From the NCBI GenBank assembly GCA_003058525.1, contig QBVD01000064.1:1-64000 (forward strand): a stretch of DNA of 64,000 nt, given 5' to 3'. The translations under genes and the position numbers were made by a program. Every line of letters starts with the position of its first letter. The first letter of the stretch is position 1. Of this stretch, positions 716 to 64,000 are shown in pieces. The notes below the pieces were generated by a model, which worked only from the letters and a program-made list of their open reading frames with translations, was not told the origin of the DNA and did no database searches. This stretch comes from a gamma proteobacterium symbiont of Ctena orbiculata. GTDB lineage: Bacteria; Pseudomonadota; Gammaproteobacteria; Chromatiales; Chromatiaceae.

Positions 716-2122
716 TTATAGGTGATAGAGCTCTTTGACCGGGCCTTGGTTCTTTGCCTCGACCTGGGCATACAGGTTGTTGAGCGCCGCCTGTAACGCC
801 TCTTCGATGACGGGATGGTAGAAAGGCATGCGCAGCAGGTCGCCGACAGTGAGTTGCTGGGAGATGGCCCAGTTGAGCAGATGGGCCAGGTTTTCGCCAC
901 GGGTGGTGATCATTTCGGCACCCAGGATCCTGCCGCTGGCTTTTTCGCCGTAGACGCGGATGATGCCGCGGCTCTGGCCCATGATCTGGGCGCGTCCGAC
1001 CGGGGCGAGCTTGACCTCGCCGATGGCGGTGTTATCCAGATCCAGGGCTTGGTAGGTTTCGCCAACCAGACAGATGTTCGGGTCGCAAAAGTTGATCGCC
1101 AGGGGGACCTTGCGCTTGAATGCGGTGACTTCGTCCTGGACGGCGTTGTGACCGGCGATTTTACCCTCGTCACCGGCCTCGTGCAGGATAGGGCGTTCGC
1201 CATTCACATCGCCCGCGATGAAGATATGGGAATCGCCGCACTGCATGGTGTTCGGGTTATAGACAGGGATACCGCGATCGTCGACTTCGATGCCGGCGTT
1301 CTCCAATGCCAGGCCTTCCACGTTGGGCGTCCGCCCGAGACTTGCAAGGACCTTGTCGACGACCACTGAATGTTCACCCGCGGTGACGCGCAACTGCGCA
1401 CCCTCTTCGCTGATCTCGACCGGTTCGCCCAGGTAGATGGGGAACTCCCGTTGCATGGTCTCTAAGGCCATCTGCGAGACTTCCGGATCCGTGGCGCCGC
1501 CGATGGTCTGCGCCATATCGAATCCGTACACATCGATCTCCAGGCGGCTTAGGGATTGTCCCAGTTCCAGGCCGATCACGCCCAGGCCCACCACGGCCAC
1601 CGATTTCGGCAGATCTTCCAGTTCGAAGAAGGTGTCGGTGGTCAGCACCTTGTCGCCGAAGGCCTCCCAGGCGGTCGGCACAACCGGGCGGGATCCCGTG
1701 GCGATAACGATCCTCTCTGCAACAACCCGGTCGCCGTTGTCGAGTTCAAGGGTGTGGGGATCGACAAATTTCGCATACGCCTCGATGAACTTGTCGCCCA
1801 TGTTGTCGGTACTGTTGGAGAGGACCCGGTCGACGAAGCTGTCGCGCAGATCCTGCACATGCTCCATGGCTTCGGGGAGATCGATGGTCAGTTCCGTATG
1901 GCCGTCCACACCGTAGCGATTGAGGTGGGTTCTGCGATGGTAGTCCTCTGCTACCTGGATCAAGGCCTTGGAGGGCATGCAGCCGACCCGCGCACAGGTG
2001 GTGCCGGGTTCGCCACCATTGATTAGGAGAAAGCTTTTACCGCTCGGTCCGACTCTGCTGGTTGCATTCAATCCCGCTGTTCCTGAGCCGAGGATAGCGA
2101 CGTCAACTTTTTTCTCTGCCAC
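716..2122 (-). CDS. Dihydrolipoyl dehydrogenase family flavoprotein
   Basis: 468-residue member of the pyridine nucleotide-disulfide oxidoreductase class I family. It has an FAD-binding GxGxxG at residues 12-17 (GSGTAG), the redox-active disulfide in CARVGC (Cys43/Cys48), a second Rossmann motif (GLGVIGLELG) for NAD(P)H, the FAD-contacting IAGDVNG motif, and the C-terminal dimer-interface His (FYHPVIEEAL) that acts as base. I chose the GTG at 2122 because AGGAG lies six bases upstream and the protein then begins with the normal N-terminus; the longer open frame upstream has no family resemblance. The gene is not beside 2-oxoacid dehydrogenase genes, so its partner is unclear. The disulfide motif differs from the usual CLNVGC. 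It could be a lipoamide dehydrogenase paralogue or a related disulfide reductase. Confidence 0.85.
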   Translation of the reverse strand: MAEKKVDVAILGSGTAGLNATSRVGPSGKSFLLINGGEPGTTCARVGCMPSKALIQVAEDYHRRTHLNRYGVDGHTELTIDLPEAMEHVQDLRDSFVDRVLSNSTDNMGDKFIEAYAKFVDPHTLELDNGDRVVAERIVIATGSRPVVPTAWEAFGDKVLTTDTFFELEDLPKSVAVVGLGVIGLELGQSLSRLEIDVYGFDMAQTIGGATDPEVSQMALETMQREFPIYLGEPVEISEEGAQLRVTAGEHSVVVDKVLASLGRTPNVEGLALENAGIEVDDRGIPVYNPNTMQCGDSHIFIAGDVNGERPILHEAGDEGKIAGHNAVQDEVTAFKRKVPLAINFCDPNICLVGETYQALDLDNTAIGEVKLAPVGRAQIMGQSRGIIRVYGEKASGRILGAEMITTRGENLAHLLNWAISQQLTVGDLLRMPFYHPVIEEALQAALNNLYAQVEAKNQGPVKELYHL

Positions 2123-2390
2123 GGAGGTCTCCTGCAATGGTTGTGCAGATCGGGATTCTAACGGCTCGTGTCGCAAAATACAGCCATCAGAATCAGGGTT
2201 AATGATTGACTTGGTCAATCCGCACCACCGATAGCGGGAGCGAGACGCCGCAATGGAAACGGATAGCGCGGGAATCTGCAGAAAAACCACACCGCCCGGA
2301 TCCGAGACTGTTTCAACCACCTCGATTGCGGTATGGTCGTGATCTGAAACAACAAATCCGAAAACGACAGATAGCGTGAGGAGATTTTGC

Positions 2391-2846
2391 ATGAAGTGGT
2401 GCCGATTATTATTGCTCTTACCGTCACTGGCGCTGGCCCAACCGCCTGGCGGGCAAATAGACCAGCAGCAGTTCTTTGAACAGTCGAAGGAGAAGATGCT
2501 GCCGATGATGGCGAAGAGTATCCCCGCCATGAAGCAGACCAAGAGCTGCCTGGAAACGGCAAACGATCAGGCAGCGTTCGAGAAGTGTGCAGAGATCATG
2601 ACCGCCATGGAGAAGGAGATAAAAGAACGGTTGGGGCCGGTGCCCGGCGTGCCGAAGGGGCAGCAACAACCGACGAAAACCCCGAAGGACATCAAGTTTA
2701 CGCCGGAAGCCAAAAAGAACATGATTAAATTCCTGGAACGATCGATCATGATCGGTACCGCCATGCAGAAGTGCTTCACTGAAAGCAGCACGGTGGATCA
2801 GATGCAGGGCTGTATGCAGGCGGCACGACCCAAGCCCAAGCAATAG
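2391..2846 (+). CDS. Secreted protein with twin CX12C motifs
   Basis: 151-residue protein with an N-terminal signal peptide (MKWCRLLLLLPSLALA, cleavage likely after ALA). I take the ATG at 2391 because GAGGAG lies seven bases upstream; an in-frame start five codons earlier lacks this site. The mature protein is helical and rich in Gln, Lys and Met. It carries two CX12C pairs (CLETANDQAAFEKC and CFTESSTVDQMQGC) separated by a Pro/Gln/Lys linker with PTKTPKD, so it looks like two disulfide-stapled helical hairpins in the periplasm. I recognise no named family. It is divergently oriented from the dihydrolipoyl dehydrogenase gene, sharing the space around 2123-2390. Confidence 0.75.
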   Translation: MKWCRLLLLLPSLALAQPPGGQIDQQQFFEQSKEKMLPMMAKSIPAMKQTKSCLETANDQAAFEKCAEIMTAMEKEIKERLGPVPGVPKGQQQPTKTPKDIKFTPEAKKNMIKFLERSIMIGTAMQKCFTESSTVDQMQGCMQAARPKPKQ

Positions 2847-2950
2847 GCGTCAGGCTTATCGCACACCTGATTCAGGGATGGATTTCAGGATGCTGCGCTC
2901 CAGTATTGCAATTGCTGACGATAAGCCGCCGGTGTCTGCATCTCGGTTTG

Positions 2951-3229
2951 TCACTCCTGCGGCAGCGGTCTGAAGCGGTAACCCTGGATGATTACCGGCT
3001 TATCCTCTGCTGGAGCGATTGCCGGTAGCGGCTGTGCCGCTTCAAGCTGTGACTGGTTGGTGACTGGTGGCGCAAGCAGCAGCGGGGGAGGACGGTAATA
3101 GTGTTGTCGATATGCAGGATGAGATTTTGTCTTTCCGTGGCCGCCGAACGAAATGCAAAAAAAGGCCTGTGCAGGGTGAAGCCAGCAGAGCACCGTAAAC
3201 ATGAGGGTCGTTTTGAGAAGAGTGGGCAT
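2951..3229 (-). CDS. Small exported protein of unknown function
   Basis: 92-residue product with a signal peptide (MPTLLKTTLMFTVLCWLHPAQA, cut after AQA) followed by a short low-complexity mature part rich in Pro, His, Tyr and Arg (YRQHYYRPPPLLLAPP) and ending PVIIQGYRFRPLPQE. The pattern of a clean Sec signal with a short Pro/Tyr-rich tail recurs in small envelope proteins of gammaproteobacteria, but I do not recognise the family. It follows glcE on the same strand, separated by about 70 bases, and lies where glcF would be expected. An overlapping frame on the same strand shows no signal peptide and is not favoured. Confidence 0.6.
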   Translation of the reverse strand: MPTLLKTTLMFTVLCWLHPAQAFFCISFGGHGKTKSHPAYRQHYYRPPPLLLAPPVTNQSQLEAAQPLPAIAPAEDKPVIIQGYRFRPLPQE

Positions 3230-3302
3230 GAATCCTCATTGGGCTGGATAGAGGGCGGAAATATTTGCGTAATCCGACAGGCATGAGAAGGTACACGGCT
3301 CT

Positions 3303-4370
3303 TCAGTAGTCTTCATAGTGTCTGCCTGGATTGAATATCCCCTCCGGGTCAAAAACCTGTTTCAGCTGTTTCTGCATGACGGTGATCCGCGGATGGAGCG
3401 GATGAAACATTTCCCCTCTGCGATCTCCATTGCGAAAAAGTATGGCATGCCCAGACTCTTTTTCCACCAGTGAACGTATCTCCCGCGCAGGCCGGTCTGT
3501 GGCCAGCCAGCGTAAACCACCGCACCATTCGTACAGTATCCGGCCCTCGATATCGAGCTTTGCCGCAGGTGGCAGAGAGAGACGCCAGAGCGGGCTTTGC
3601 TGTTTGAAGTAGTCGTGTTGCTGATCTCGCAGGCCCTGCCAAAATCCGCTTTGGGGCTTGTCACAGGGATCGAGTCCGTAATGGGTCTGAATCTCCTCCT
3701 TACGCTGCTGGGAGCAGGCAATTCGTACCTTGTGATTGTTGTCAAGGCTGTAGGTGGCGGTGATGGGTACACCCTCGATCAGCATCTTGTGCAGCAGTGC
3801 CCAGGCCGCGGGCTGCTCCGCCGAGAAAGCGAGGGTGTATTCTTGCATGGGTTTGGGCAATACCTTGATCGATACCTCCAGCAGGATACCCAGGGTTCCC
3901 ATCGCCCCTGCCATCAGGCGCGAGAGATCGTAGCCAGCCACATTTTTCATCACCTGGCCGCCGAACTTCAGTATCTGACCCTTTCCGTCGAGTAGCTTGA
4001 TACCCAGCAGCTGATCCCTGGGTGATCCGCCCCAGGGACGACGCGGACCACCGAGCCCTGCAGCGATGGCGCCGCCGATGGTGCCTTTGCCATCGAAATG
4101 GGGTGGTTCGAAGGAGAGCATCTGTCCCTTTTCCAGTAACGCATCCTCAATCTCCCGCAAGGGTGTTCCGGCACGCGCCGTGATCACCAGTTCCGTGGGT
4201 TCGTAGCTGATGATACCGCGATGTTCCGCAAGCGACAGGGGCTCTCCGGCCAGCTCACGACCATAAAACGATTTGCTGCCGTGCCCCATCACTTGCAGGG
4301 GACGGAGATCATGGGCGGCATCCTTGACAGCCGTTTGAAGCGATTGACTGCAGTCGCGGTCGTTGCCCAT
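3303..4370 (-). CDS. glcE: Glycolate oxidase FAD-binding subunit GlcE
   Basis: 355-residue FAD-binding subunit of glycolate dehydrogenase, which oxidises glycolate to glyoxylate. Its FAD_binding_4 fold is visible in ELVITARAGTPLREIEDALL, the GGAIAAGLGGPRRP loop, and QVMKNVAGYDLSRLMAGAMG, all typical of GlcE; the C-terminus FDPEGIFNPGRHYEDY matches the family ending. The start at 4370 overlaps the stop of glcD by one base (ATGA), so the two are translationally coupled; the open frame extends further upstream only inside glcD. The third subunit GlcF, an iron-sulfur protein that passes electrons to quinone, would normally come next but is not in this window. Confidence 0.93.
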   Translation of the reverse strand: MGNDRDCSQSLQTAVKDAAHDLRPLQVMGHGSKSFYGRELAGEPLSLAEHRGIISYEPTELVITARAGTPLREIEDALLEKGQMLSFEPPHFDGKGTIGGAIAAGLGGPRRPWGGSPRDQLLGIKLLDGKGQILKFGGQVMKNVAGYDLSRLMAGAMGTLGILLEVSIKVLPKPMQEYTLAFSAEQPAAWALLHKMLIEGVPITATYSLDNNHKVRIACSQQRKEEIQTHYGLDPCDKPQSGFWQGLRDQQHDYFKQQSPLWRLSLPPAAKLDIEGRILYEWCGGLRWLATDRPAREIRSLVEKESGHAILFRNGDRRGEMFHPLHPRITVMQKQLKQVFDPEGIFNPGRHYEDY

Positions 4371-8239: not shown

Positions 8240-8310
8240 TCGTGTGGTGTGCGACCGGGGAGTGCTGACCACATGTCGGTTCCAGACATATTGCCCCGCA
8301 GGCCTTCAAT

Positions 8311-8346
8311 CAGGCCCCAACGGCAGGGACCTGCTGTTGGGGCCTG
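8311..8346 (+). terminator. Hairpin downstream of the copper receptor gene
   Basis: An 11-bp perfect stem (CAGGCCCCAAC with GTTGGGGCCTG) encloses a further GCAGG/CCTGC pairing, giving a nearly uninterrupted stem of about 17 bp. It lies 70 bases past the receptor stop codon. No run of T follows, so it may be a terminator of weak type or an mRNA-stabilising stem. Confidence 0.55.
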
Positions 8347-8493
8347 GATCTCGCCAGGTCAACCTTGTTGCCGGGTTAGTGGTTGATCGGGTTTTTTTTC
8401 GTGCCGCGATTATCGGCTATCCTGGGATATTTGCGGTTTTATTGCTTCACTGTTTTACAGTAGTCTGTGTGGCTCGACAGCTTATATCTTAAG

Positions 8494-8504
8494 AACAGGC
8501 CCTA
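8494..8504. repeat. Solo end of the GGGCCTGTT-type short repeat
   Basis: AACAGGCCCTA is identical to the right end of the 146-bp element at 42993-43138. No partner end is nearby, so it may be a remnant or a chance match. It sits ten bases before the ATG of the prenyltransferase gene. Confidence 0.35.
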
Positions 8505-8513
8505 GGACAACCG

Positions 8514-9416
8514 ATGATACCGTTTCCCGTGATTGGCGTTGCCAGACCCAATTTTCTGATTCTGACACCCATCTGTGTCTCACTTGGTTTGGCTAGCGTC
8601 CTGTTGAGTGAACACGGTGTGACATGGGGCTTGTTTGCTGTCGTGCTGCTGGGTGCCTTAATGGCACATATCAGTGTCAATGCGCTCAATGAATATACGG
8701 ATTTTCAGTCGGGACTCGACTTCAAGACGGATCGCACACCATTCAGTGGCGGCAGTGGAACCTTGGTGATTCAGCCCCGCCTGGCGCCCTATGCGCTGGG
8801 TATCGGCTTGGTATCTCTTACTGTAACCCTGATCTGTGGCATATACCTTCTGCAGCATGTAGGTTGGGGGCTGGTCCCGATAGGTGTTCTCGGCATGCTG
8901 ATCATCGTTACCTATACCAGTTGGATCAATCGCAACAGAGTGCTGGTACTGGTTGCGCCAGGTTTGGGATTCGGGCCTTTGATGGTGATCGGTACTTACT
9001 ATGCTTTGACGGCTGAATACAGTTCCACCGCATTGTTGCTGTCTATGATTCCATTCTTTCTGGTCAACAATCTACTGCTTCTCAACCAGCTACCCGATGT
9101 GGATGCTGACCGCAGTGTGGGTCGCGACAACTTTGCCATCGCCTGGAGTACGGAAAAGAGTGCATGGTTGTTCCTGATATTCTGTATCCTGGCCTACGTG
9201 ATGATTATTATGGGAGTGGTGATGGGCCGCCTGCCTTTTACGGCGCTCATTGGTTTGGTCACAGCCGGACTCGCCTATCAAGTCTTTAAAGGCATCAGAG
9301 CGTATAGGGGTGAGATCAAACAATTGATACCTTATCTGGGTAAAAACGTCGTACTCACCCTGGTCACTCCGCTTTTGATTTTTCTCGGCATACTGGCCGA
9401 TATAATAATTATTTGA
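8514..9416 (+). CDS. UbiA/MenA-type prenyltransferase
   Basis: 300-residue integral membrane protein with about eight or nine helices. The UbiA family uses two Asp-rich motifs to bind Mg-prenyl diphosphate; here they are NALNEYTDFQSGLD (residues about 61-74) and LPDVDADRSVGRDN (about 193-206). The combination of the first motif with FKTDRTPFSGGSGTL is closest to MenA-like 1,4-dihydroxy-2-naphthoate prenyltransferases and their relatives of unknown acceptor. The gene is not in a menaquinone operon; the next gene encodes an unrelated membrane-anchored protein. The substrate cannot be told from the sequence. The start at 8514 yields a short N-terminus before the first helix, which fits the family. 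Confidence 0.85.
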   Translation: MIPFPVIGVARPNFLILTPICVSLGLASVLLSEHGVTWGLFAVVLLGALMAHISVNALNEYTDFQSGLDFKTDRTPFSGGSGTLVIQPRLAPYALGIGLVSLTVTLICGIYLLQHVGWGLVPIGVLGMLIIVTYTSWINRNRVLVLVAPGLGFGPLMVIGTYYALTAEYSSTALLLSMIPFFLVNNLLLLNQLPDVDADRSVGRDNFAIAWSTEKSAWLFLIFCILAYVMIIMGVVMGRLPFTALIGLVTAGLAYQVFKGIRAYRGEIKQLIPYLGKNVVLTLVTPLLIFLGILADIIII

Positions 9417-9492
9417 ATTACGTATCTTGGAGTATGTAATCAATATCTCTGGTCAATAATTTTATATAAACCTGCCTGGTGGGAAACGACAA

Positions 9493-9996
9493 TTGCAGCT
9501 CTCCGACAATCACAATTCGCTTTTATGGGCTCTCCTGGGGTTGCTATTCGCAGCTATCTGTCTAGTCGCGCTCTACAAGACATGGCCGATACTATTTCCC
9601 GATACGGTACTGAAGACGGCTGTCGATCCGGCTTGCGATCTGCGCGCCGGAGCCTGTATGACCCAACTGAATGAGGGTGGCAGCATCGCCTTCTCCATTG
9701 AACCGAGAGAAATCCCGGTTGTGAAACCCCTGCAGTTGCGGGTCAACCTTGTAGGCATCCGTGCAAAGAGTATCGAAGTGGATTTCAGTGGTGTGGATAT
9801 GAATATGGGCTTCAATCGATCCAAGTTGAGCCATGTTGCCGATGGCGTTTTCAGCGGACAGGCAATGTTACCTGTGTGTGTCTGGGACGCCATGGAGTGG
9901 GAAGCCCAAGTCTTGATCGACACTCAAAAGGGATTGATTTCGGTACCGTATCGCTTCATTACAGTCCGCCCGGGGGTTCCCCTGCCGGATTCCTAG
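9493..9996 (+). CDS. Membrane-anchored protein with MNMGFNR motif
   Basis: 167-residue protein with one N-terminal transmembrane helix (LLWALLGLLFAAICLVALYKTWPILF) and a periplasmic beta-rich domain. Conserved-looking features are the Cys pair CDLRAGACM (residues about 48-56), VDMNMGFNRSKL, and a C-terminal CVWDAMEWEAQVLIDTQ. The layout (one helix, then a beta-sandwich with Met residues) resembles FixH/YtkA-like and copper-assembly accessory proteins, but I cannot assign a family with certainty. The start is a TTG at 9493 because no ATG is available before the membrane helix; GGTGGGA lies upstream. It follows the prenyltransferase gene by about 75 bases. Confidence 0.65.
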   Translation: MQLSDNHNSLLWALLGLLFAAICLVALYKTWPILFPDTVLKTAVDPACDLRAGACMTQLNEGGSIAFSIEPREIPVVKPLQLRVNLVGIRAKSIEVDFSGVDMNMGFNRSKLSHVADGVFSGQAMLPVCVWDAMEWEAQVLIDTQKGLISVPYRFITVRPGVPLPDS

Positions 9997-13418: not shown

Positions 13419-13987
13419 GGCGAATCAAGGGCCAAGCTTTCATCCTATGGCTCTGTTTGCCCCTTTTCAGTGGAAGCGTGGTGGCACAGAATCGGATGAC
13501 CGATCCTGTTACGGGTGTTGTCACATGGGAGACAACCACACATGGGGTGACACTATCGTTGACCCAGATGCTGCCGGATCAGGCCCGTGCCTTCTATCTC
13601 AATCGCGGACTGTCGGCCGAAGCCACCGAGGCCTATGCCAAGGCCTGTGTCTATAGTGTGGTGTTGCGAAATGACACCGCTCCCGGAGTGGTTCATTTCA
13701 GATTGGCCGATTGGTCCGTAGTGAGTGAGGGTGAATCCAAGCCTCTGCCGAGCGTGGAGGGATGGCTCAGTCGTTTCGAGGAATATGAACACCCGAAATC
13801 TGCGACAATTGCATTCAGATGGGCTCAATTTCCGCCGCAACAAGCCTATCAGCCCGGAGGTGACTGGAATCAGGGAATGCTCGCTACCGGACTCCCGGTC
13901 GGTAGTGAATTCGATCTGGTGGCCCGCTGGGAAGTGGCCGGACAATCCTATCAAGGTGTGTTGAACAATGTGCGTTGTGCCCGCTGA
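13415..13987 (+). CDS. Exported protein of unknown function
   Basis: 190-residue protein with a signal peptide (FILWLCLPLFSGSVVAQ). The mature part looks like a mixed beta fold: TDPVTGVVTWETTTHGVTLSLTQMLPDQARAFYLNRGLS, a single internal Cys in KACVYSVVLRN, and a C-terminal Cys (NNVRCAR) that could pair with it. The VSxTQxxPDQxRAFYxxRG text recurs, to my memory, in uncharacterised gammaproteobacterial proteins found next to TlpA-like thioredoxins; that is recollection, not a search. It overlaps mtkB by four bases and the following thioredoxin gene by 20 bases, so it belongs to the same transcript. Confidence 0.72.
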   Translation: MRRIKGQAFILWLCLPLFSGSVVAQNRMTDPVTGVVTWETTTHGVTLSLTQMLPDQARAFYLNRGLSAEATEAYAKACVYSVVLRNDTAPGVVHFRLADWSVVSEGESKPLPSVEGWLSRFEEYEHPKSATIAFRWAQFPPQQAYQPGGDWNQGMLATGLPVGSEFDLVARWEVAGQSYQGVLNNVRCAR

Positions 13988-14522
13988 CTACATAAGATGG
14001 ATGGGAATATGGTTGTGTCTGGGACTTGCCCCGGCGCAGGCGGAACTCCCGCCGTTGACCCATGACCTGATACCTGTCTCGGAATCACGATCGGCGCCCG
14101 ATCTGCGATTACCCGATATGGATGATGAGATAGTCGATATACGATCGCTGAAGGGCAAGGTTGTCGTCGTCAACTTCTGGGCAACCTGGTGCCCCCCCTG
14201 CAGGCGTGAGATGCCATCTCTGGAACAGCTCTATCAGGCGACAAAAGAGCGGGGTGTCGTGGTGTTGGCTGTCAATATCGGTGAGGACGTCGATGCCATC
14301 TTTCCCTTTCTCGGCAGAGTGGAGCCCTCGCCCAGCTTCCCGATCCTGCTCGACAGTGACTCCTCAAGCCCATCTGCTTGGAAGGTGAGGGGGTTGCCTA
14401 CTACGTTCGTGGTTGCCCCTGACGGTAAACTGGCCTTTCAGGCAGTGGGTGGTCGCGAATTCAGTCATCCCGATCTGATCAACCAGCTGATGAGCCTGTT
14501 TGAGGAAGGGAACGTTAAATGA
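13968..14522 (+). CDS. TlpA-like periplasmic thiol-disulfide protein
   Basis: 184-residue exported thioredoxin-fold protein. An N-terminal hydrophobic segment (MGIWLCLGLAPAQA) serves as signal or anchor. The redox motif is WCPPC at residues 74-78 within VVVNFWATWCPPCRREMPSL, the classic TlpA/ResA pattern, and the cis-Pro is in VRGLPTTFVV. Such proteins keep target cysteines reduced in the periplasm, often for cytochrome c or copper-site assembly. The gene overlaps the preceding exported protein, which has two cysteines and could be a substrate (inference). An alternative start is the Met at residue 12. Confidence 0.88.
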   Translation: MCVVPADYIRWMGIWLCLGLAPAQAELPPLTHDLIPVSESRSAPDLRLPDMDDEIVDIRSLKGKVVVVNFWATWCPPCRREMPSLEQLYQATKERGVVVLAVNIGEDVDAIFPFLGRVEPSPSFPILLDSDSSSPSAWKVRGLPTTFVVAPDGKLAFQAVGGREFSHPDLINQLMSLFEEGNVK

Positions 14523-14701
14523 CACAGCTCTCGATCGAGCAGGGTATTTTTTTCAGATTGGGTATCCCGGCAGCCATTGTAAACTCAAAATGGTATCGGA
14601 AAGCCCTTAAGTTGCCTCTCTCTCATGTCTGTTACCGCTTGTAATTGTTCCTCAATAGGAGGAATATTCCCCAATCAGACCACAGGAATAGGTTCCGTGC
14701 G

Positions 14702-56509: not shown

Positions 56510-57817
56510 TTATTGCTGGCTGATCGGCAACTTACCTTCCAGCGACTCGAGAAAGGCCACAATCTCTTCAACCTCAGTATCACTCAAGGCCTGATGGCTC
56601 TCTACCCTGAGTCGTTTACTGTTACTCAGCCATTGAATTGATCTGTCATCAGTGTCCCTATTGCTTATGGCTTTGTTCAACTGAACATGGGCCATGATGC
56701 GTACCGCCTCTTCCAGAGTGGAAACAGAACCATTGTGGAAATAGGGACCGGTTCGAGTGACATTGCATAGCGAAGGAATGCGCCAGACACCTCTGTCCGA
56801 GCCGTTATCCTTTGGTGCTGCTCCGAGATCATCGCTTAGACGATGCCGCTGCTCATACACCGTATTGGGAATGGTAGGGAATATCCTGTAGGGCGTGTCG
56901 TCACTGAACAGACTTGCTGCACTGAAATTCGGTCCGGAGTGGCAAAGGATGCAGCCGGTGGACTCGAACAGCGCCATACCGCGAATCTGCTTTTCAGTGA
57001 GTGCGCTCGAATCGCCCCTGGTAAACCGGTCATAGGGTGAGTCAGGCGTGATCAGGGTGCGCTCATAGCTGGCGATAGCCATTGCGATGGTGTCGATGGT
57101 GATCGCCGGCCGGGTTGGAAACGTTGAGCTGAACAACGCCTGATACTCTGGAATATTGCGTACTGTCTTTACCACATGATCCAGTGAGGGCATACCCATT
57201 TCGATCGGGTTGATCAGCGGGCCCTTTGCCTGCTCCTCAAGTGATGTGGCGCGCCCGTCCCAAAACAGTACTTTCTGGAAGGCCGCATTGAATACTGTGG
57301 GGGCGTTCCTGGTGCCCTGTTTACCGTCTATACCGATCGATGCGGTCAGTCCGTCCCCACCACCTTTGTCATCGGTGAGTTCATGACAGGATGCACATGA
57401 AAGCGAACCGTCTGCCGATAGCCGCGTATCGAAGAACAGCTTTTCGCCCAGCCTGATTTTTTCGGCAGTAGGCGGGTTGTCCTCAGGATATGGAGCTGAG
57501 GTGGGCAGTGCCTGCCAGGTATAGGGGGTTTTGAATATCCTTGAATCATAGCGTTGGTCGGTAGATGCAATGACCGATGCAAACTCATGCTCACGTTCGG
57601 GAAACAGCGACAACATAGGCCCGGGGAAGAGTGAGAAGATCACGATAAGCCCAATCTTCAGACTGAATGCGATGATACCGGTACCGAGGCCAATCCCAAG
57701 GAACCATTTTCGTCGCTGATTGGGTGTGAGTTCGCGAACCATGCTGATCAGCAGAAAAAAACCGGCTATGATTGCAATCAATCCAAATGCCAGAAGCTCA
57801 ATTATTCCCGTATTCAT
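56510..57817 (-). CDS. Di-heme cytochrome c peroxidase family protein
   Basis: 435-residue member of the CcpA/MauG family. An N-terminal transmembrane anchor (IIELLAFGLIAIIAGFFLLISMV and a second hydrophobic stretch) holds it to the membrane. Two heme c sites are present: CASCH (about residue 137-141) and CILCH (about 285-289). Other family text: LGEKLFFDTRLSADGSLSCASCHELTDDKGGGDGL and RNAPTVFNAAFQKVLFWDGRATSLEEQAKGPLINPIEMGM. Classical members reduce H2O2 with electrons from cytochrome c or act in protein modification. It follows the small membrane protein gene at 57866 by 48 bases on the same strand. Confidence 0.92.
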   Translation of the reverse strand: MNTGIIELLAFGLIAIIAGFFLLISMVRELTPNQRRKWFLGIGLGTGIIAFSLKIGLIVIFSLFPGPMLSLFPEREHEFASVIASTDQRYDSRIFKTPYTWQALPTSAPYPEDNPPTAEKIRLGEKLFFDTRLSADGSLSCASCHELTDDKGGGDGLTASIGIDGKQGTRNAPTVFNAAFQKVLFWDGRATSLEEQAKGPLINPIEMGMPSLDHVVKTVRNIPEYQALFSSTFPTRPAITIDTIAMAIASYERTLITPDSPYDRFTRGDSSALTEKQIRGMALFESTGCILCHSGPNFSAASLFSDDTPYRIFPTIPNTVYEQRHRLSDDLGAAPKDNGSDRGVWRIPSLCNVTRTGPYFHNGSVSTLEEAVRIMAHVQLNKAISNRDTDDRSIQWLSNSKRLRVESHQALSDTEVEEIVAFLESLEGKLPISQQ

Positions 57818-57865
57818 CCTATCTCTTCAGTCCGCTAAATGTGGCAGATCTACATGCTGAAGGGG

Positions 57866-58045
57866 TTACTTGAAGCCAAGCTTTCTATACAGCACCAGTC
57901 CTGGACAGAGACCCGTAAGGCCGGCGAAGACCAGCATCCCGGCAGGCAGATAGAGGAACCAATGCACCTGATTCCAGCCGGACAATCCGATCCCGGCAAA
58001 GAGCAGTGCGGCGATGGTCAAAAACAGCATTCGCTGGGCACTCAT
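57866..58045 (-). CDS. Small membrane protein (DUF2892-like)
   Basis: 59-residue protein with two transmembrane helices: MLFLTIAALLFAGIGLSG and HWFLYLPAGMLVFAGLTG, then LCPGLVLYRKLGFK. This is the YgaP-type/DUF2892 pattern, including the CPG near the C-terminus. ATGGAGATCAACG precedes the ATG at 58045 with GGAG seven bases away. Function unknown; in other organisms similar domains accompany rhodanese or sulfur-handling proteins. It is upstream of the di-heme peroxidase gene on the same strand and divergent from the LysR gene. Confidence 0.8.
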   Translation of the reverse strand: MSAQRMLFLTIAALLFAGIGLSGWNQVHWFLYLPAGMLVFAGLTGLCPGLVLYRKLGFK

Positions 58046-58157
58046 CGTTGATCTCCATAGTGTTGAATTGTGTCGATGAAAAGCATAAGCTCGAGACGAA
58101 TAATTGAGAAATTCTATTTATGAATACTATTTATTTGATATCCGAATAAATTAAGTT

Positions 58158-59102
58158 ATGAATCTAAAGCAGCTTCAGTTTGCCGTGCACGTAGCCGAGA
58201 CCCACTCGTTCAGTCGCGCTGCGGAGCTTTGCTTCGCCACTCAACCGACGTTGTCGAATGCCATCTCGCAACTTGAGGATGAATTGGGGGGGAGGTTGTT
58301 CAGTCGCACGACGCGTAGGGTTGATCTGACTCCCTTCGGCGAATATATGCTGCCGCGTATCAAGGATGTACTACTGAGTCTCGATGAATTGACCAAGGCG
58401 GCAGAGTCCTTCCACAATCCCACGCATAAGATTTTGCGCATTGGTTTTTCTCCCCTGGTCGACATGCAGAGGCTGGATCATGTGTTGGCGCCGTTTCGAC
58501 AGGCAAATCCGGATATCACGATCTTCTTCAAGGAGTGTTTTATCGATGACCTTGCCGAGCGTCTGAACAGGGGACAGATCGATGTGCAGATCCTGCCGAC
58601 GACAACTGAGAGTGAGAGAGAACATGCCTGCCTTTTCTACCGGGATTCTCTCCACTACCTGCCGGCGGCTGATGACATTCAAGTGGCGAATCATCTGTCA
58701 TTCAAAATAACAGACCTGCCTGCCACTCCGATCATCCTTACAGGTGGCGGTTGCGGACTGAATGCTGCCTTGTCAACGTTACTCAAATCCCAGGGTGTTG
58801 AGTTGCATGCCTATGCGGGGCAGGCCCTGACCTATCAGGTGATCGAGGATTGGGTCTCATTGGGAATAGGCGCCGGTATTCTGCCGAAGGCCAAAATATC
58901 ACCAGACAATATGGCCAACTTTCCGCTATTTATCGATAAAGATGAACCCGCCTGTTTCAGCTTTGAGTGGAGTTGGCAATCTGAAAGCACTGAGTCCGCG
59001 CATGTTCAATCGTTTATCGATTATATCCGGACGACAGTCCCCGCATTGGTTTCCGGTCAGGCCGAGACAGGCAGTCAGCAAAGTGTTGGCCAATCAATTT
59101 GA
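58158..59102 (+). CDS. LysR-family transcriptional regulator
   Basis: 314-residue regulator with an N-terminal winged helix-turn-helix (MNLKQLQFAVHVAETHSFSRAAELCFATQPTLSNAISQLEDELGGRLFSRTTRRVDLTPFG) and a C-terminal periplasmic-binding-like effector domain (about 90-300). It is divergent from the DUF2892-peroxidase pair across a 112-base gap and lies 142 bases upstream of the truncated hemoglobin gene, so it may control either or both, as LysR genes often regulate a divergent neighbour. The inducer is unknown. Confidence 0.9.
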   Translation: MNLKQLQFAVHVAETHSFSRAAELCFATQPTLSNAISQLEDELGGRLFSRTTRRVDLTPFGEYMLPRIKDVLLSLDELTKAAESFHNPTHKILRIGFSPLVDMQRLDHVLAPFRQANPDITIFFKECFIDDLAERLNRGQIDVQILPTTTESEREHACLFYRDSLHYLPAADDIQVANHLSFKITDLPATPIILTGGGCGLNAALSTLLKSQGVELHAYAGQALTYQVIEDWVSLGIGAGILPKAKISPDNMANFPLFIDKDEPACFSFEWSWQSESTESAHVQSFIDYIRTTVPALVSGQAETGSQQSVGQSI

Positions 59103-59244
59103 GAACGATTGGGATTGATTTAAAAACTGAATAAATTACATTCTTAAATACAATTTCTAATTTTATCGACATATACCTACCCTGAAACAGCGGCCGACAA
59201 CCGAGTCGCTTTGCAAACAAATTTTGCCGTTAAGGAGTAGTGTT

Positions 59245-59712
59245 ATGAAGACCCGTTTTCACCAGTTTGCCATTACCGCTGTTCTGCCACTTGCATTGGT
59301 GTGTGCTGCACCATCAGCAATCGCCGGCGACAATGATCCATCACAAGTCTCTCTCTATGAACGGCTGGGCGGTTATAACGCCATCAGTGCTGTGGTGAAT
59401 GATGTGGTTGTGCAGATTGCAGCAGATGAAAAACTCGGGCGCTTTTGGGCGCATCGCGGTAGTGACGGGATTTCAAGGGAAAAACAGTTGATTGTGGATT
59501 TTATCGTCTCTAAGGCGGGTGGCCCGCTCTACTACAGAGGGCGGGAGATGAAACTTTCCCATGAGGGTATGAGGATAGATGAGAAGGATTGGGAGATCCT
59601 GATCACCGCACTGAAAAATACCCTGCACAAATTCAAGGTACCCGCCACAGAGAGTCGTGAAGTGTTGGATTTCTTTGCCGGCACAAAGAAAGACATTGTA
59701 GAGAAATCCTAG
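59245..59712 (+). CDS. Exported group 1 truncated hemoglobin
   Basis: 155-residue globin with a Sec signal peptide (FHQFAITAVLPLALVCAAPSAIAG, cut after AIA). The group 1 fold is visible in SLYERLGGYNAISAVVNDVVVQIAADEKLGRFW and in the proximal heme His within MKLSHEGMRIDEKDWEIL, the usual F8 position. I choose the ATG at 59245 because TAAGGAG precedes it and the signal peptide then starts normally; an upstream in-frame start exists. Periplasmic truncated hemoglobins of this kind are thought to bind NO or O2. It is followed by an HbpS-like gene. Confidence 0.9.
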   Translation: MKTRFHQFAITAVLPLALVCAAPSAIAGDNDPSQVSLYERLGGYNAISAVVNDVVVQIAADEKLGRFWAHRGSDGISREKQLIVDFIVSKAGGPLYYRGREMKLSHEGMRIDEKDWEILITALKNTLHKFKVPATESREVLDFFAGTKKDIVEKS

Positions 59713-59846
59713 CATCGTCTGACAGGTTTTATCGACCTGTTGCCTACCGATGACGGATAACTCTCAGCGTGTGATCAGAGTGGCTTGACCTGTTAGATTG
59801 CTCGCTGAGAGTTTGGCGGAAAATCATTGTTTACCGGAGTAAAAAA

Positions 59847-60383
59847 ATGCTATCCAGGAGCCTCTACTTACTGACCGTGCTTGCCATATTCTTTAACAGT
59901 TCCGCAAATGCCGACTCGCAGCATGGCAGTGCTGTTTATCAGTTTCGGTCGATCTCATTGGAAATGGCTTCCAAGGCGGCATGGGGCGCAATCAATGACT
60001 GCCGTAATCGAGGTTATTCTGTTGCGGCTGCAGTGGTGGATCGCGGTGGCAATATACAGGTTCAGCTACGAGACCGTTTTGCCGGTCCACATACTTCGGA
60101 GACCGCATATCGGAAGGCCTGGACAGCCAACAGCTTTCGCCAGTCAACTGCCGAACTGGCAGGCATGCTTGAGGAACGGCGCATTCCTGACCAAGTGGCT
60201 AACAATCCCGGTGTACTGCTTGTGGGTGGTGGCTTGACGATAGAGGCGGGTGGTGAATTTCTAGGTGGTATCGGTATCTCGGGCGCGCCACCGGGGAATT
60301 CCGAACGGGACAGCATTGACGGCGTTTGTGCCATGGCTGGACTCGAAACGGTACGTGATGCATTGGAGTTCGCTGATGAATAA
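59847..60383 (+). CDS. Exported HbpS/GlcG-family (DUF336) protein
   Basis: 178-residue protein with a signal peptide (LLTVLAIFFNSSANA). The DUF336 heme/cofactor-binding fold is seen in ISLEMASKAAWGAINDCRNRGYSVAAAVVDRGGNIQVQLRDRFAGPHTSETAYRKAWTANSF and NNPGVLLVGGGLTIEAGGEFLGGIGISGAPPGNSERD. Members such as HbpS bind heme and iron, and others bind cobalamin or unknown ligands. It lies 134 bases behind the truncated hemoglobin gene; the pair may handle heme or NO in the periplasm (inference). Despite the name GlcG it has no link to the glycolate genes here. Confidence 0.87.
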   Translation: MLSRSLYLLTVLAIFFNSSANADSQHGSAVYQFRSISLEMASKAAWGAINDCRNRGYSVAAAVVDRGGNIQVQLRDRFAGPHTSETAYRKAWTANSFRQSTAELAGMLEERRIPDQVANNPGVLLVGGGLTIEAGGEFLGGIGISGAPPGNSERDSIDGVCAMAGLETVRDALEFADE

Positions 60384-60475: not shown

Positions 60476-60499
60476 TGGTGCCGAGGAGAGGACTTGAAC
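60476..60499 (-). other. tRNA-Leu 3' fragment, probable attachment site
   Basis: On the minus strand these 24 bases read as a T-arm half (GTTCAAGTCC) joined to a tRNA-Leu acceptor end (TCCTCGGCACCA). No tRNA body follows. Such 3' tRNA pieces are left as attL/attR when an island integrates at a tRNA gene. Direct repeats of GCGTTCCAC lie 61-80 bases to its right. Confidence 0.75.
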
Positions 60500-60772: not shown

Positions 60773-60949
60773 GTGCAGATACTGGGTCAAAACTGAACGC
60801 AAATCAACACTCATGCCATCGGAAATTCTGATATTCGCATTCATCTGCTGACTTTCATCATACCACCTACCTGGTCGGAGGAGATTGACTTGTGCTTGTA
60901 GGAGCATTTACTAAACTTGCAGGAAGAACTATAAAAAGGAGACGGCAAG

Positions 60950-63900
60950 ATGCCAGCACGGATTCCGACCCCTGATCAGTCCCGCAAGTTGTCCGGAGAA
61001 CGTAAAACCGTCGCGCAACGACGAGTCTTTTCCCCCGGAGAAGATCTACATTTGCGCTATTCTCAAGTCGCATTACCATTTTCTCCGGAACATGCTGGGT
61101 ATTTAGCGATACACCTTGCCTCGCTCGATGCGGTTTCTTTTGGCGAATTCAAGGAGCTCGTGCAAAGGCTGGACAAAAACGCGCGCGATCACGGGTTTGA
61201 AGGGCTCACGGTCGCTTGTGTTTCGTTCGGACTTTGGCGGCACTGGCATGAGCAGGGAGATGTCGCTCTCGACCCAGAGTTGTTCGAGGGAGCCGAGGCG
61301 CTTGAGGCGGTGCTTTCACGAAATGATCCACCCTATGCCTTTGATGGTGGCGAGTTCTTCTTTCACGTCAAGGCGACGACGCGGGAGGAATGTGAAACCA
61401 TCATACGCGTCGTTCTTTATGCCCTGCGTGATAAGGTGAATATCGAGAAATCGGTCTGTACGATCGGTGATTCGATCCATGGTGGTCGAATATATGGCGG
61501 ACGCATGTTACATGGCCTGATCTCTTCGGTGGAACCGGTCGGCTTTTCCGCTCGCGCCATCATTGGCCATGAATTCCCTTCACACCGTGGCGGTTGTTTT
61601 GCCGTGACTCAGCAATTTATCCACGACTGGCAGCAATTGTCAGGTATGGCGGACAATCAGATGGAAAATCTGATTGGCCGTGATCACAATGGAAATATCA
61701 TTACTAATGACGATTCAGCCGCTCATGTAAAGATGGTTCGCGTCAATGATGAAGACGGTCTCAACTATCGCCATATCTCCCAAAGTCAACCGTTCCGGGC
61801 CCGCTCACGGATTGTCCGGGACGAAAAAATTTATGTGATCGAGGACAAGCCCCGCCGTCCGGAAATTGGACCGGGCAAGGAAGAAGGTGTCTATCAAGTC
61901 TCCTACACAAAGACCATCGCGGCGCTGACCCGAGTGTTGGAGAATATGATCGGCTCCGATCCCGGCTATATTAAATGTCGTCATTTGAATTTCTCCCATG
62001 CTGATTCGGGATCGTACTGGTATGTCCCTAGCGCGGTGGAACTGGGCCTGGAGGCCCCTCACGATGAACTCACCGTGCCCATGAATGAGTTCTTCGATAT
62101 CCGTTCGTCCAATGGGTTTATGTTTTATAACGCAAAGGATTATCTGCATCATGTGGGAAATCGTGCCCCTCAAGCGGCGACGCTATCACCGCAGCCCTCT
62201 GATCGCGTGGTGGAGCTCTTGGGCAATACGTTTTCCCGCTGGCACGATACCTGGTATCGACGTCGCCCGGCCCCGGAGTTAGGGCACTTGAAGAAATGGT
62301 TACGGTCCGGTGATGGGGATTTAAATCAACTTAGCTTAGCCGAACGTAAAGGGCTAGCGACCAAACGCACCTTGGAACTTCTGTCTAGCAGCGGACTGGG
62401 TAATGAATTCGATACCTTTCGAATTCACCCATCGGAGTTGATTGTGGGCGTTGTCCCCGAATTTACTCTGGGGAGCGGCTTCGAAGCCATGGATTACATG
62501 AATGAGGCCGAGAGGGAGAACGCTTTTGTTCTTAGGCTTAATGAGGCCGGAGCCGCGGGACATAACGTACCTAACTACGCTCGGGCGGTCTCAGTGGGTA
62601 TCGGTACCTTGACAGACGAGATAAGGCAAAGAAGGGACGAGGCTACAAGCGAGGAATCGAGAGCATTTTACGCCTCTGCGTTACTTGCTTATGAGGGAGT
62701 GACCTCTTATCTAAAGAACTATGCCGAATTGGCGAGGAAGCGGTCCAGTGAAATATCTTCATCTCGTGCCGAAGAAAGGGAAAATCTTCTAGCGATTGCG
62801 GAGCGATTCGAGAGGTTGGGTAAAGATCGTCCCACCTCGTTTGTCGATGCAGCGCAACTGGTATTTTCTCTCCACTGTTGCATGCATATATCAGGAGAAT
62901 CCGTCTCTATCGGTCGATTAGATCAAATACTCAATCCGTTCTACGAGTCGGACTTGTCCGCGGATGAGATTACGCAGGCGCAAGCGCAGGAGATCATCGA
63001 TTGTTTCTGGCTCAAGATGAATGAAAAAGTCTTGCTCAATCACCGCCATTTCAATGACCGTCTATCCCGGGGTTCAGGCGCCATTCCCTATGAGGGAGGC
63101 GATTTTCCCCAAGGCGCCGCATTGAACCAATGGGTTCAACAAGTCACCGTCGGAGGTTCCAAGGCAAACGATTCCGAGGTACCCGAGGATGCCAGCAATG
63201 AGGTCACTCGGATGTGCTTGCGGGCCGCGCGAAGGTTGCCGCTGAATGCGCCTTGTCTGTCCCTAAAGGTCAGTTCTCGCACACCTCAGTGGGTTTTTGA
63301 CGAGGCTGCCAAGGTTGTCCTTTCCGGAGGCGGTCATCCGTTTCTGATCAATGACGATAAGATTACGGGCGGCTTAATGGAAAGCGGGCATAGAAGCGGC
63401 GGTGAAGGTGAAATGGAGTTGGCCGATGCTCGTGATATGGTTTGCGACGGATGTTTCGAGTCGCTGGTCGCCGGTAAGAACGAGTTCGCCTTTTCCTATG
63501 TGCCGGTACCGGATGCCATAGAAATGGCCTTGAACCGAGGTCGCACCTATGCCGCGGCGGGACCCGTGCATATTACCGGATTGAAAGCGTCGTTTCGTTC
63601 GCCGCCGGCGAAAGAGATCAAGGATTTTGATACGTTCTATGACATCTTTTTAGATCATTACCGTTTCAAGTTGATCGATTTCTTCTCGGGCATGCTGGTT
63701 CGCTACGGTAATCTGAATGCCGTCTGTCCAAGCCCGTTGTTATCTCCGTTGATAGACGGTTGTTTGGAAAGCGGGCGGGACTTGACCGCCGGTGGGGCTA
63801 GGTACAAATTAGTCGCGCCCTTGATGAACGGAATGGCTTGCGCTATCGATTCCCTTTGGGCAATCCGAAGCTTGGTTTATAGCGAGGAAGCGGTGTTGAC

Positions 63901-64000
63901 GCTTGATGAGTTGGTACACGGATTGATCTGCGATTGGGGGCACGATATGAAGGAGCCGTTTTATCCCGCCTCGTTGGGTGAGGATCGGATCGCGGTTCAA
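60950..64000 (+). CDS. DyP-type peroxidase fused to glycyl radical enzyme (partial)
   Basis: A single frame of 1017 codons without a stop, running out of the window. AAGGAG lies eight bases before the ATG. Residues about 35-370 form a DyP-type heme domain (YfeX branch): VSFGLWRHW, GCFAVTQQFIHDWQQLSGMADNQMENLIGRD, proximal His259 in SAAHVKMV, Arg274, and a C-terminal YQVSYTKTIAALTRVLENMIG. The distal GxxDG Asp is replaced (GLISS, residues 189-193). Residues about 465-1017 form a PFL-type glycyl radical enzyme: AGHNVPNYARAVSVGIG, RLDQILNPFYESDLS, LINDDKITGGLMESG, the thiyl Cys835 with Glu837 in VCDGCFESLVAGK, and SPLIDGCLESGRDLTAGGARYKLV. The Gly-radical loop lies beyond the edge. It is next to a tRNA-Leu fragment. 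Confidence 0.88.
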   Translation, partial: MPARIPTPDQSRKLSGERKTVAQRRVFSPGEDLHLRYSQVALPFSPEHAGYLAIHLASLDAVSFGEFKELVQRLDKNARDHGFEGLTVACVSFGLWRHWHEQGDVALDPELFEGAEALEAVLSRNDPPYAFDGGEFFFHVKATTREECETIIRVVLYALRDKVNIEKSVCTIGDSIHGGRIYGGRMLHGLISSVEPVGFSARAIIGHEFPSHRGGCFAVTQQFIHDWQQLSGMADNQMENLIGRDHNGNIITNDDSAAHVKMVRVNDEDGLNYRHISQSQPFRARSRIVRDEKIYVIEDKPRRPEIGPGKEEGVYQVSYTKTIAALTRVLENMIGSDPGYIKCRHLNFSHADSGSYWYVPSAVELGLEAPHDELTVPMNEFFDIRSSNGFMFYNAKDYLHHVGNRAPQAATLSPQPSDRVVELLGNTFSRWHDTWYRRRPAPELGHLKKWLRSGDGDLNQLSLAERKGLATKRTLELLSSSGLGNEFDTFRIHPSELIVGVVPEFTLGSGFEAMDYMNEAERENAFVLRLNEAGAAGHNVPNYARAVSVGIGTLTDEIRQRRDEATSEESRAFYASALLAYEGVTSYLKNYAELARKRSSEISSSRAEERENLLAIAERFERLGKDRPTSFVDAAQLVFSLHCCMHISGESVSIGRLDQILNPFYESDLSADEITQAQAQEIIDCFWLKMNEKVLLNHRHFNDRLSRGSGAIPYEGGDFPQGAALNQWVQQVTVGGSKANDSEVPEDASNEVTRMCLRAARRLPLNAPCLSLKVSSRTPQWVFDEAAKVVLSGGGHPFLINDDKITGGLMESGHRSGGEGEMELADARDMVCDGCFESLVAGKNEFAFSYVPVPDAIEMALNRGRTYAAAGPVHITGLKASFRSPPAKEIKDFDTFYDIFLDHYRFKLIDFFSGMLVRYGNLNAVCPSPLLSPLIDGCLESGRDLTAGGARYKLVAPLMNGMACAIDSLWAIRSLVYSEEAVLTLDELVHGLICDWGHDMKEPFYPASLGEDRIAVQ

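Follow-up and report, generated by a model that had tools for sequence, protein, structure and literature searches.

A DyP-fold heme domain fused to a glycyl radical enzyme in bacteria that mostly lack a recognisable activase

The analysed DNA encodes, in a single chain, an N-terminal DyP-fold heme domain and a complete C-terminal glycyl radical enzyme (GRE) domain; relatives of this protein keep all the residues expected for radical chemistry, and most of their host genomes have no GRE activase above curated cut-offs. O2 cleaves ordinary glycyl radicals. To our knowledge, no characterised GRE does without a separate radical-SAM activase or withstands air, and we know of no precedent for a glycyl radical installed by heme. 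The reading that we prefer, with a probability of roughly 40%, is that the GRE half is activated by its heme partner in place of an activase.

Results

The window comprises the initial 64,000 nucleotides of contig C26, which is 88,075 bases long and belongs to a genome of 4.74 Mb. The frame beginning at 60950 stays open up to the window edge, as the first-pass annotation had found by translation, and in the full contig it runs on to a stop at C26:64711, yielding a product of 1253 residues with the C-terminus LVRMRMGGWSEFFVAMFPHHQEQHKRRP. No stop, frameshift or assembly break separates the two domains, and the fusion also occurs as a single ORF in unrelated genomes. The gene and its parts are as follows.

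60936 to 60941, + strand: good ribosome-binding site AAGGAG, 8 bases 5' of the ATG, read from the sequence
60950 to 64000, + strand: fusion gene; the window holds its first 1017 codons out of 1253, and the stop ends at C26:64711
61085 to 62044, + strand: DyP-fold heme domain of B type, residues about 46–365; nearest solved structures are DypB and encapsulin-associated DyPs
61511 to 61513, + strand: His188, at the site of the distal GXXDG Asp, from the family alignment and the DypB alignment of homologue L031
61724 to 61726, + strand: His259, proximal heme ligand position, invariant, from the DypB and family alignments
61778 to 61780, + strand: Ser277, at the site of the distal Arg, from the DypB and family alignments
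62045 to 62194, + strand: linker with the family motif RSxNGxMxYN, from the family alignment
62195 to 64000, + strand: GRE domain, residues about 416–1253, a complete barrel by Pfam and Foldseek; runs on to C26:64708
63443 to 63460, + strand: Cys832-Asp-Gly-Cys835-Phe-Glu837, with the thiyl Cys and the Glu in the GCxE position; the extra Cys832 is typical of this GRE clade

A Pfam search with the full chain bore out the initial assignment of a DyP-like and a GRE domain. The PFL-like family (PF02901) matched residues 516–1056 (E=2.6e-103) and Dyp_perox_C matched residues 202–363 (E=7.7e-9, 36 bits against a cut-off of 20), while Gly_radical matched residues 1179–1234 slightly under its cut-off (E=0.0017, 19.3 against 22.2 bits). 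The NCBIfam Dyp superfamily model covered residues 46–365 at E=1.3e-16, under that model's cut-off. By sequence the DyP half is nearest to DypB (3qnr, E=2e-18) and encapsulin-type DyPs. The GRE half starts at an FSRWxDTW motif, which is also recognisable at the start of a stand-alone sister GRE. With a B-type DyP placed N-terminal to PFL in one chain, the protein is a member of the DyP-PFL fusion family.

That family had been thought at first pass to have no described counterpart, but such fusions were published in 2016: Zamocky et al. (PMC5041501, citing Strittmatter et al. 2014) reported DyP(B)-PFL fusions in Chaetomium and several bacterial groups, which rules out a new architecture. The same paper termed the function of DyP B-PFL "elusive", invoked horizontal transfer, found expression of the fungal fusion gene to rise 3-fold with H2O2 and 18.5-fold with peroxyacetic acid, and named a putative PFL activase in the fungus. 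Our literature search for DyP with glycyl radical or PFL returned no further account of the fusion. The published proteins resemble the present ones in having the B-type DyP N-terminal and the PFL-like part C-terminal and in being scattered by horizontal transfer; in contrast to the fungus with its putative activase, most hosts here have none, and the window clade differs in that its distal Asp and Arg are replaced. The section on DyPs in that paper covers neither gene context nor any split sister clade or conflict island. What is new here is the scarcity of activases in the hosts, a split sister clade with an A-type DyP, the loss of distal residues and the island context.

We found thirty-odd full-length homologues in Gemmatimonadota, Acidobacteriota, Proteobacteria, Myxococcota, Bacteroidota and Actinomycetota. 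A scan of 84,980 species genomes yielded 19 loci, each spanning both halves, one of them (L044) as two overlapping frames; further fusions lie on an Asticcacaulis plasmid and in an IMG/VR contig, while none was found in the phage records searched. The fusion is present in 12 of 351 genomes of the order of Pedobacter (Sphingobacteriales) and rare in the window's own class, with two full-length matches in 369 genomes, one of which is the window itself. A chance or frameshift fusion is ruled out by the full-length homologues, which number more than 30, are nearly all single-ORF and occur in many phyla. In a tree of the GRE half and in one of the DyP half, the fused proteins come out as one clade, with similar inner groups in both; this concordance is consistent with one fusion event and later transfer of both halves together. 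The stem leading to the window clade measures 0.78 changes per column in the DyP tree and 0.34 in the GRE tree, which points to faster change of the heme half in this clade. One Archangium genome (G377) carries two fusion paralogues, of which the second (L047, 8306–12262) falls in the Glu clade and the first (L035) groups elsewhere.

Following the frame past the window revealed the glycine loop at residues 1222–1233 (VRMRMGGWSEFF), with Gly1228 as the radical Gly. In a profile alignment with solved GREs, RMRMGGW aligns to the RVxGY loop and CDGCFE to GCVE. The chain from residue 54 to 1253 was modelled by AlphaFold2 with 19 family sequences (pLDDT 76, pTM 0.83), and, as the initial proposal of a GRE fold would have it, Foldseek against the PDB matched the second half to diol dehydratase, glycerol dehydratase and CutC (1r8w, 5i2a) with a target TM score of about 0.73. 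Since these matches cover nearly the whole of each target, the GRE half is complete. A search against a viral structure library gave DyP-like and weak matches only. The GRE half has the PFL-like barrel, the active-site Cys with its Glu and the C-terminal Gly loop. It shares the barrel fold, the GCxE motif and the C-terminal Gly loop with diol and glycerol dehydratases and CutC (1r8w, 5i2a, 5fau), at about 20% identity; unlike these enzymes, the fusion has an N-terminal DyP domain and no adjoining activase, and reads CDGC(F/Y)E in place of GCVEP and RxGGW in place of RVxGY.

We then compared 19 intact family proteins that are 35–66% identical to the window protein. None of the 19 deviates at the proximal His, Cys832, Cys835, Glu837, Arg1225, Gly1227, Gly1228 or Trp1229, and His259, Cys835 and Glu837 sit exactly where the first-pass annotation had placed them. 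The distal Asp position holds Asp in seven and Glu in eight other homologues, which form separate groups, and the window clade has His there; at the distal Arg position, the window protein has Ser277, its three closest relatives have Gly and the remaining 15 of 19 have Arg. The GRE half is thus strongly constrained throughout, whereas the window clade has a rebuilt heme pocket. The DyP half has the domain homology (E about 1e-18) and the proximal His of B-type DyPs such as DypB (3qnr) and the encapsulin DyPs; in contrast to them, it is not a stand-alone enzyme, and in the window clade it lacks the distal Asp and Arg. With both distal catalytic residues replaced, an ordinary peroxidase is ruled out for this clade, and we therefore call this half DyP-fold rather than filing it as a DyP peroxidase; the loss should weaken ordinary peroxidase turnover.

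Two side observations concern single residues and tails. The fusion of an Albibeggiatoa MAG (L036, 9977–13441) has Tyr for Cys835 and no Gly loop, and this copy is either decayed or mis-assembled. A CPFH-like C-terminal tail, resembling Cys-Pro heme-regulatory motifs, is present in L037, L039–L041, L043, L045 and L055–L066, mostly from Bacteroidota.

These residues bear on whether radical chemistry might have been lost, such that the GRE fold would serve as a non-radical enzyme or a scaffold, with other roles for its conserved Cys and Gly. Such a loss would agree with most hosts being devoid of an activase and with the L036 homologue, in which Cys and Gly loop are gone; yet Cys835, Glu837, Arg1225 and Gly1228 are invariant in the 19 intact proteins in spite of their divergence, and the radical motifs are intact in the 12 Sphingobacteriales loci. 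We regard this explanation as quite improbable.

Host genomes were searched for the GRE-activase families TIGR02494 and TIGR02493 at curated cut-offs (20 hosts), and nine further Bacteroidota hosts for TIGR02494 only. Altogether, 26 of 29 genomes have no activase above cut-off, among them the window genome (neither family) and all nine of the further Bacteroidota. The three exceptions among the 20, a Gemmatimonadota, Desulfobacca and Chromobacterium, are the same three that carry other GREs. An activase gene adjoining the fusion, for which the first-pass annotation had suggested a search, turned up neither in the window nor elsewhere: no ORF with a CxxxCxxC radical-SAM motif adjoins the fusion at any fusion locus, and the radical-SAM ORF of L042 lies about 8 kb away from the fusion, next to a separate canonical GRE. 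In 15 of 20 hosts the fusion is the sole PFL-like protein; the extra ones are a split sister GRE in an Acidobacteriota host, the second fusion in Archangium and the other GREs of the three hosts above. As a control, an activase was present near the GRE in four of five genomes that carry ordinary GREs, and the fifth GRE-like protein (L006) has no active-site Cys. This L006 protein (877–3360 of its locus in genome G275) reads AGSLGV at the GCxE position, has an RIGGC loop and comes from a genome with no TIGR02494 match over cut-off; it is possibly a non-radical relative of GREs. Given that the window genome and most hosts have no activase over cut-off, the fusion is not filed as an ordinary activase-dependent GRE, and in most carriers it may be switched on differently. 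A divergent activase outside the tested families could have been missed.

NrdG exceeds its cut-off in one host. In the window genome, a 208-aa NrdG-like gene adjoins a 681-aa NrdD, which gives this genome a radical-SAM gene of the ribonucleotide reductase type. The main rival to heme-driven activation builds on such genes: the heme domain would remove peroxide or O2 near the GRE, and the radical would come from a borrowed radical-SAM enzyme, NrdG-like or an unrecognised activase. The proximal His kept in all members, the distal acid and Arg kept in most, the NrdG-like and NrdD genes of the window genome, the PFL-type activases of three hosts and the putative fungal activase (PMC5041501) are all consistent with such a protective role. 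Against it, neither a PFL-type activase nor NrdG exceeds cut-off in most hosts, the Gly_radical domain scores under the Pfam cut-off, and in the window clade it is the distal peroxidase residues that were lost while the GRE residues were kept. We consider a protective heme domain somewhat unlikely.

Heme-driven activation gains from a split sister clade. A second locus of an Acidobacteriota genome (G371) encodes a stand-alone 888-aa GRE with CDGCFE and RVRMGGW, directly followed by an A-type DyP of 443 aa that retains the distal Asp, the proximal His and the Arg motifs, and then by a small HAD-like gene. A Hymenobacter plasmid has the order GRE, DyP, PLD, HAD, with the GRE and DyP frames interrupted. 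In the GRE tree the split GREs branch as sister to the fused clade; the same GRE lineage is therefore paired with two different DyP types, once fused and once adjacent, which we take as the best evidence that the heme protein and the GRE work together. As judged from genome sequences, this independent pairing and the near-absence of GRE activases favour a functional link between heme and GRE.

The gene neighbourhood of the window fusion is that of an apparent genomic island. The following features lie to its left and at its boundary.

56510 to 57817, – strand: di-heme MauG/CCP gene, by profile match
58158 to 59102: LysR-like regulator, left of the island
59224 to 59712: truncated-globin-like protein, left of the island
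59847 to 60383: HbpS-like heme-degrading protein, left of the island
60476 to 60499, no strand assigned: 24-bp copy of the tRNA-Leu(CAG) 3' end, an exact match between C26:60477–60499 and C91:60004–60026 with unrelated flanks

Heme-related genes thus stand side by side at 56510–60383 of the window, outside the island. The C91 copy lies at an intact tRNA-Leu(cag), and the copy in the window is a probable attachment-site remnant marking the left end of the island. No direct repeat was found within C26 at the right end of the contig, the matching tRNA-Leu being on the other contig; a tyrosine integrase is encoded at C26:86448–87647. The fusion is the first gene inside the apparent island. Behind it come genes for a PLD-type protein, a cytidine deaminase and a HAD-like protein. 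Three trypsin-NucA fusions are next, then an SGNH hydrolase, a protein that matches astacin weakly, a trypsin and a STAND NTPase carrying a trypsin domain. The conflict-type group and the integrase span C26:68807–87647, and the STAND NTPase has 1466 residues with its trypsin domain at the C-terminus.

These downstream genes show the combination that defines System 3 (Kaur et al. 2020, PMC7159879), a trypsin-like peptidase and a NucA nuclease, often with STAND. They resemble its NucA/trypsin operons in the three trypsin-NucA fusions, the further trypsin and the STAND NTPase with trypsin; the DyP-GRE fusion differs in sitting in the neighbouring gene group, and the word "peroxidase" is absent from the text of PMC7159879. 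Going by gene order, the fusion may or may not belong to this conflict system. Clusters of trypsin, NucA and STAND also adjoin the GRE, DyP and PLD genes of the Hymenobacter plasmid, and TIR, nSTAND-WD40 and CHAT genes occur at the Acidobacteriota split locus; no such conflict cluster was found in the DNA examined around the closest fused relatives (L026–L028), and the PADLOC anti-phage library had no match for the fusion.

PLD homologues adjoin the fusion or the GRE in four loci. Fusions of gamma- and alphaproteobacteria usually have DUF2608 and a PF04185 phosphoesterase next to them. In Marinomonas (L040), a 5'-nucleotidase and an S1/P1 nuclease flank the fusion (8251–9702 and 13826–14656), another phosphoester theme. 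Homology as HAD proteins between the small protein of the window type and the DUF2608 neighbours was unsupported by profile comparison, and a PDB search gave no match; the HAD label of the former is assigned from motifs only.

Such neighbours raise the alternative of sequential catalysis or a radical relay, in which the DyP would prepare a small substrate for cleavage by the GRE, or the reverse, with substrate channelling and a radical obtained by some other route. The fusion and the adjacency in the sister clade, with two different DyP types, suit this scheme, and the recurring phosphoester enzymes (PLD, DUF2608, PF04185, S1/P1 nuclease, 5'-nucleotidase) hint at a head-group or nucleotide substrate; on the other side, the neighbours vary between clades and the sequence names no substrate. 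We deem sequential catalysis improbable.

Discussion

The data enable us to propose a putative model of heme-driven, activase-free radical generation. By its GCxE motif, the GRE half would be an active eliminase or lyase of the diol dehydratase/CutC type, and the DyP-fold domain would bind heme. With H2O2, an organic peroxide or O2 as the oxidant, the attached heme domain would install the radical by one-electron oxidation, in place of a radical-SAM activase; the heme would oxidise Gly1228 or Cys835, and the radical would persist in the cell. A radical installed by heme would allow the enzyme to work in aerobic or oxidatively stressed cells.

The architecture with its conserved radical residues, the scarcity of activases, the double pairing of heme protein and GRE, and the induction of the fungal gene by peroxide and peracid (PMC5041501) all argue for heme-driven activation. 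The three hosts with activases, the NrdG-like gene of the window genome and the putative fungal activase (PMC5041501) argue against it, as do the lack of a known precedent, the O2 sensitivity of ordinary glycyl radicals and the loss of the distal Asp and Arg in the window clade. With His188 and Ser277 in place of Asp and Arg, the oxidant or the oxidising step in the window clade, if any, would not be that of ordinary DyP chemistry; His188 might serve as the distal base in place of Asp, or might ligate the iron.

In a more extended form, the proposal is that a built-in or neighbouring heme protein would make the glycyl radical with peroxide or O2 and no radical-SAM activase, bringing normally anaerobic chemistry into aerobes, and that the window clade, with its rebuilt distal pocket, would serve a conflict island. 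We put this forward tentatively, as possible but doubtful. A part in cell defence or conflict, triggered by an oxidant, is plausible.

In summary, this is a widespread family that keeps all radical residues, lives mostly in hosts with no GRE activase above cut-off and has two independent links to heme proteins. The long-standing question of what DyP-PFL fusions do becomes directly testable, and the family could reveal a second route to protein glycyl radicals.
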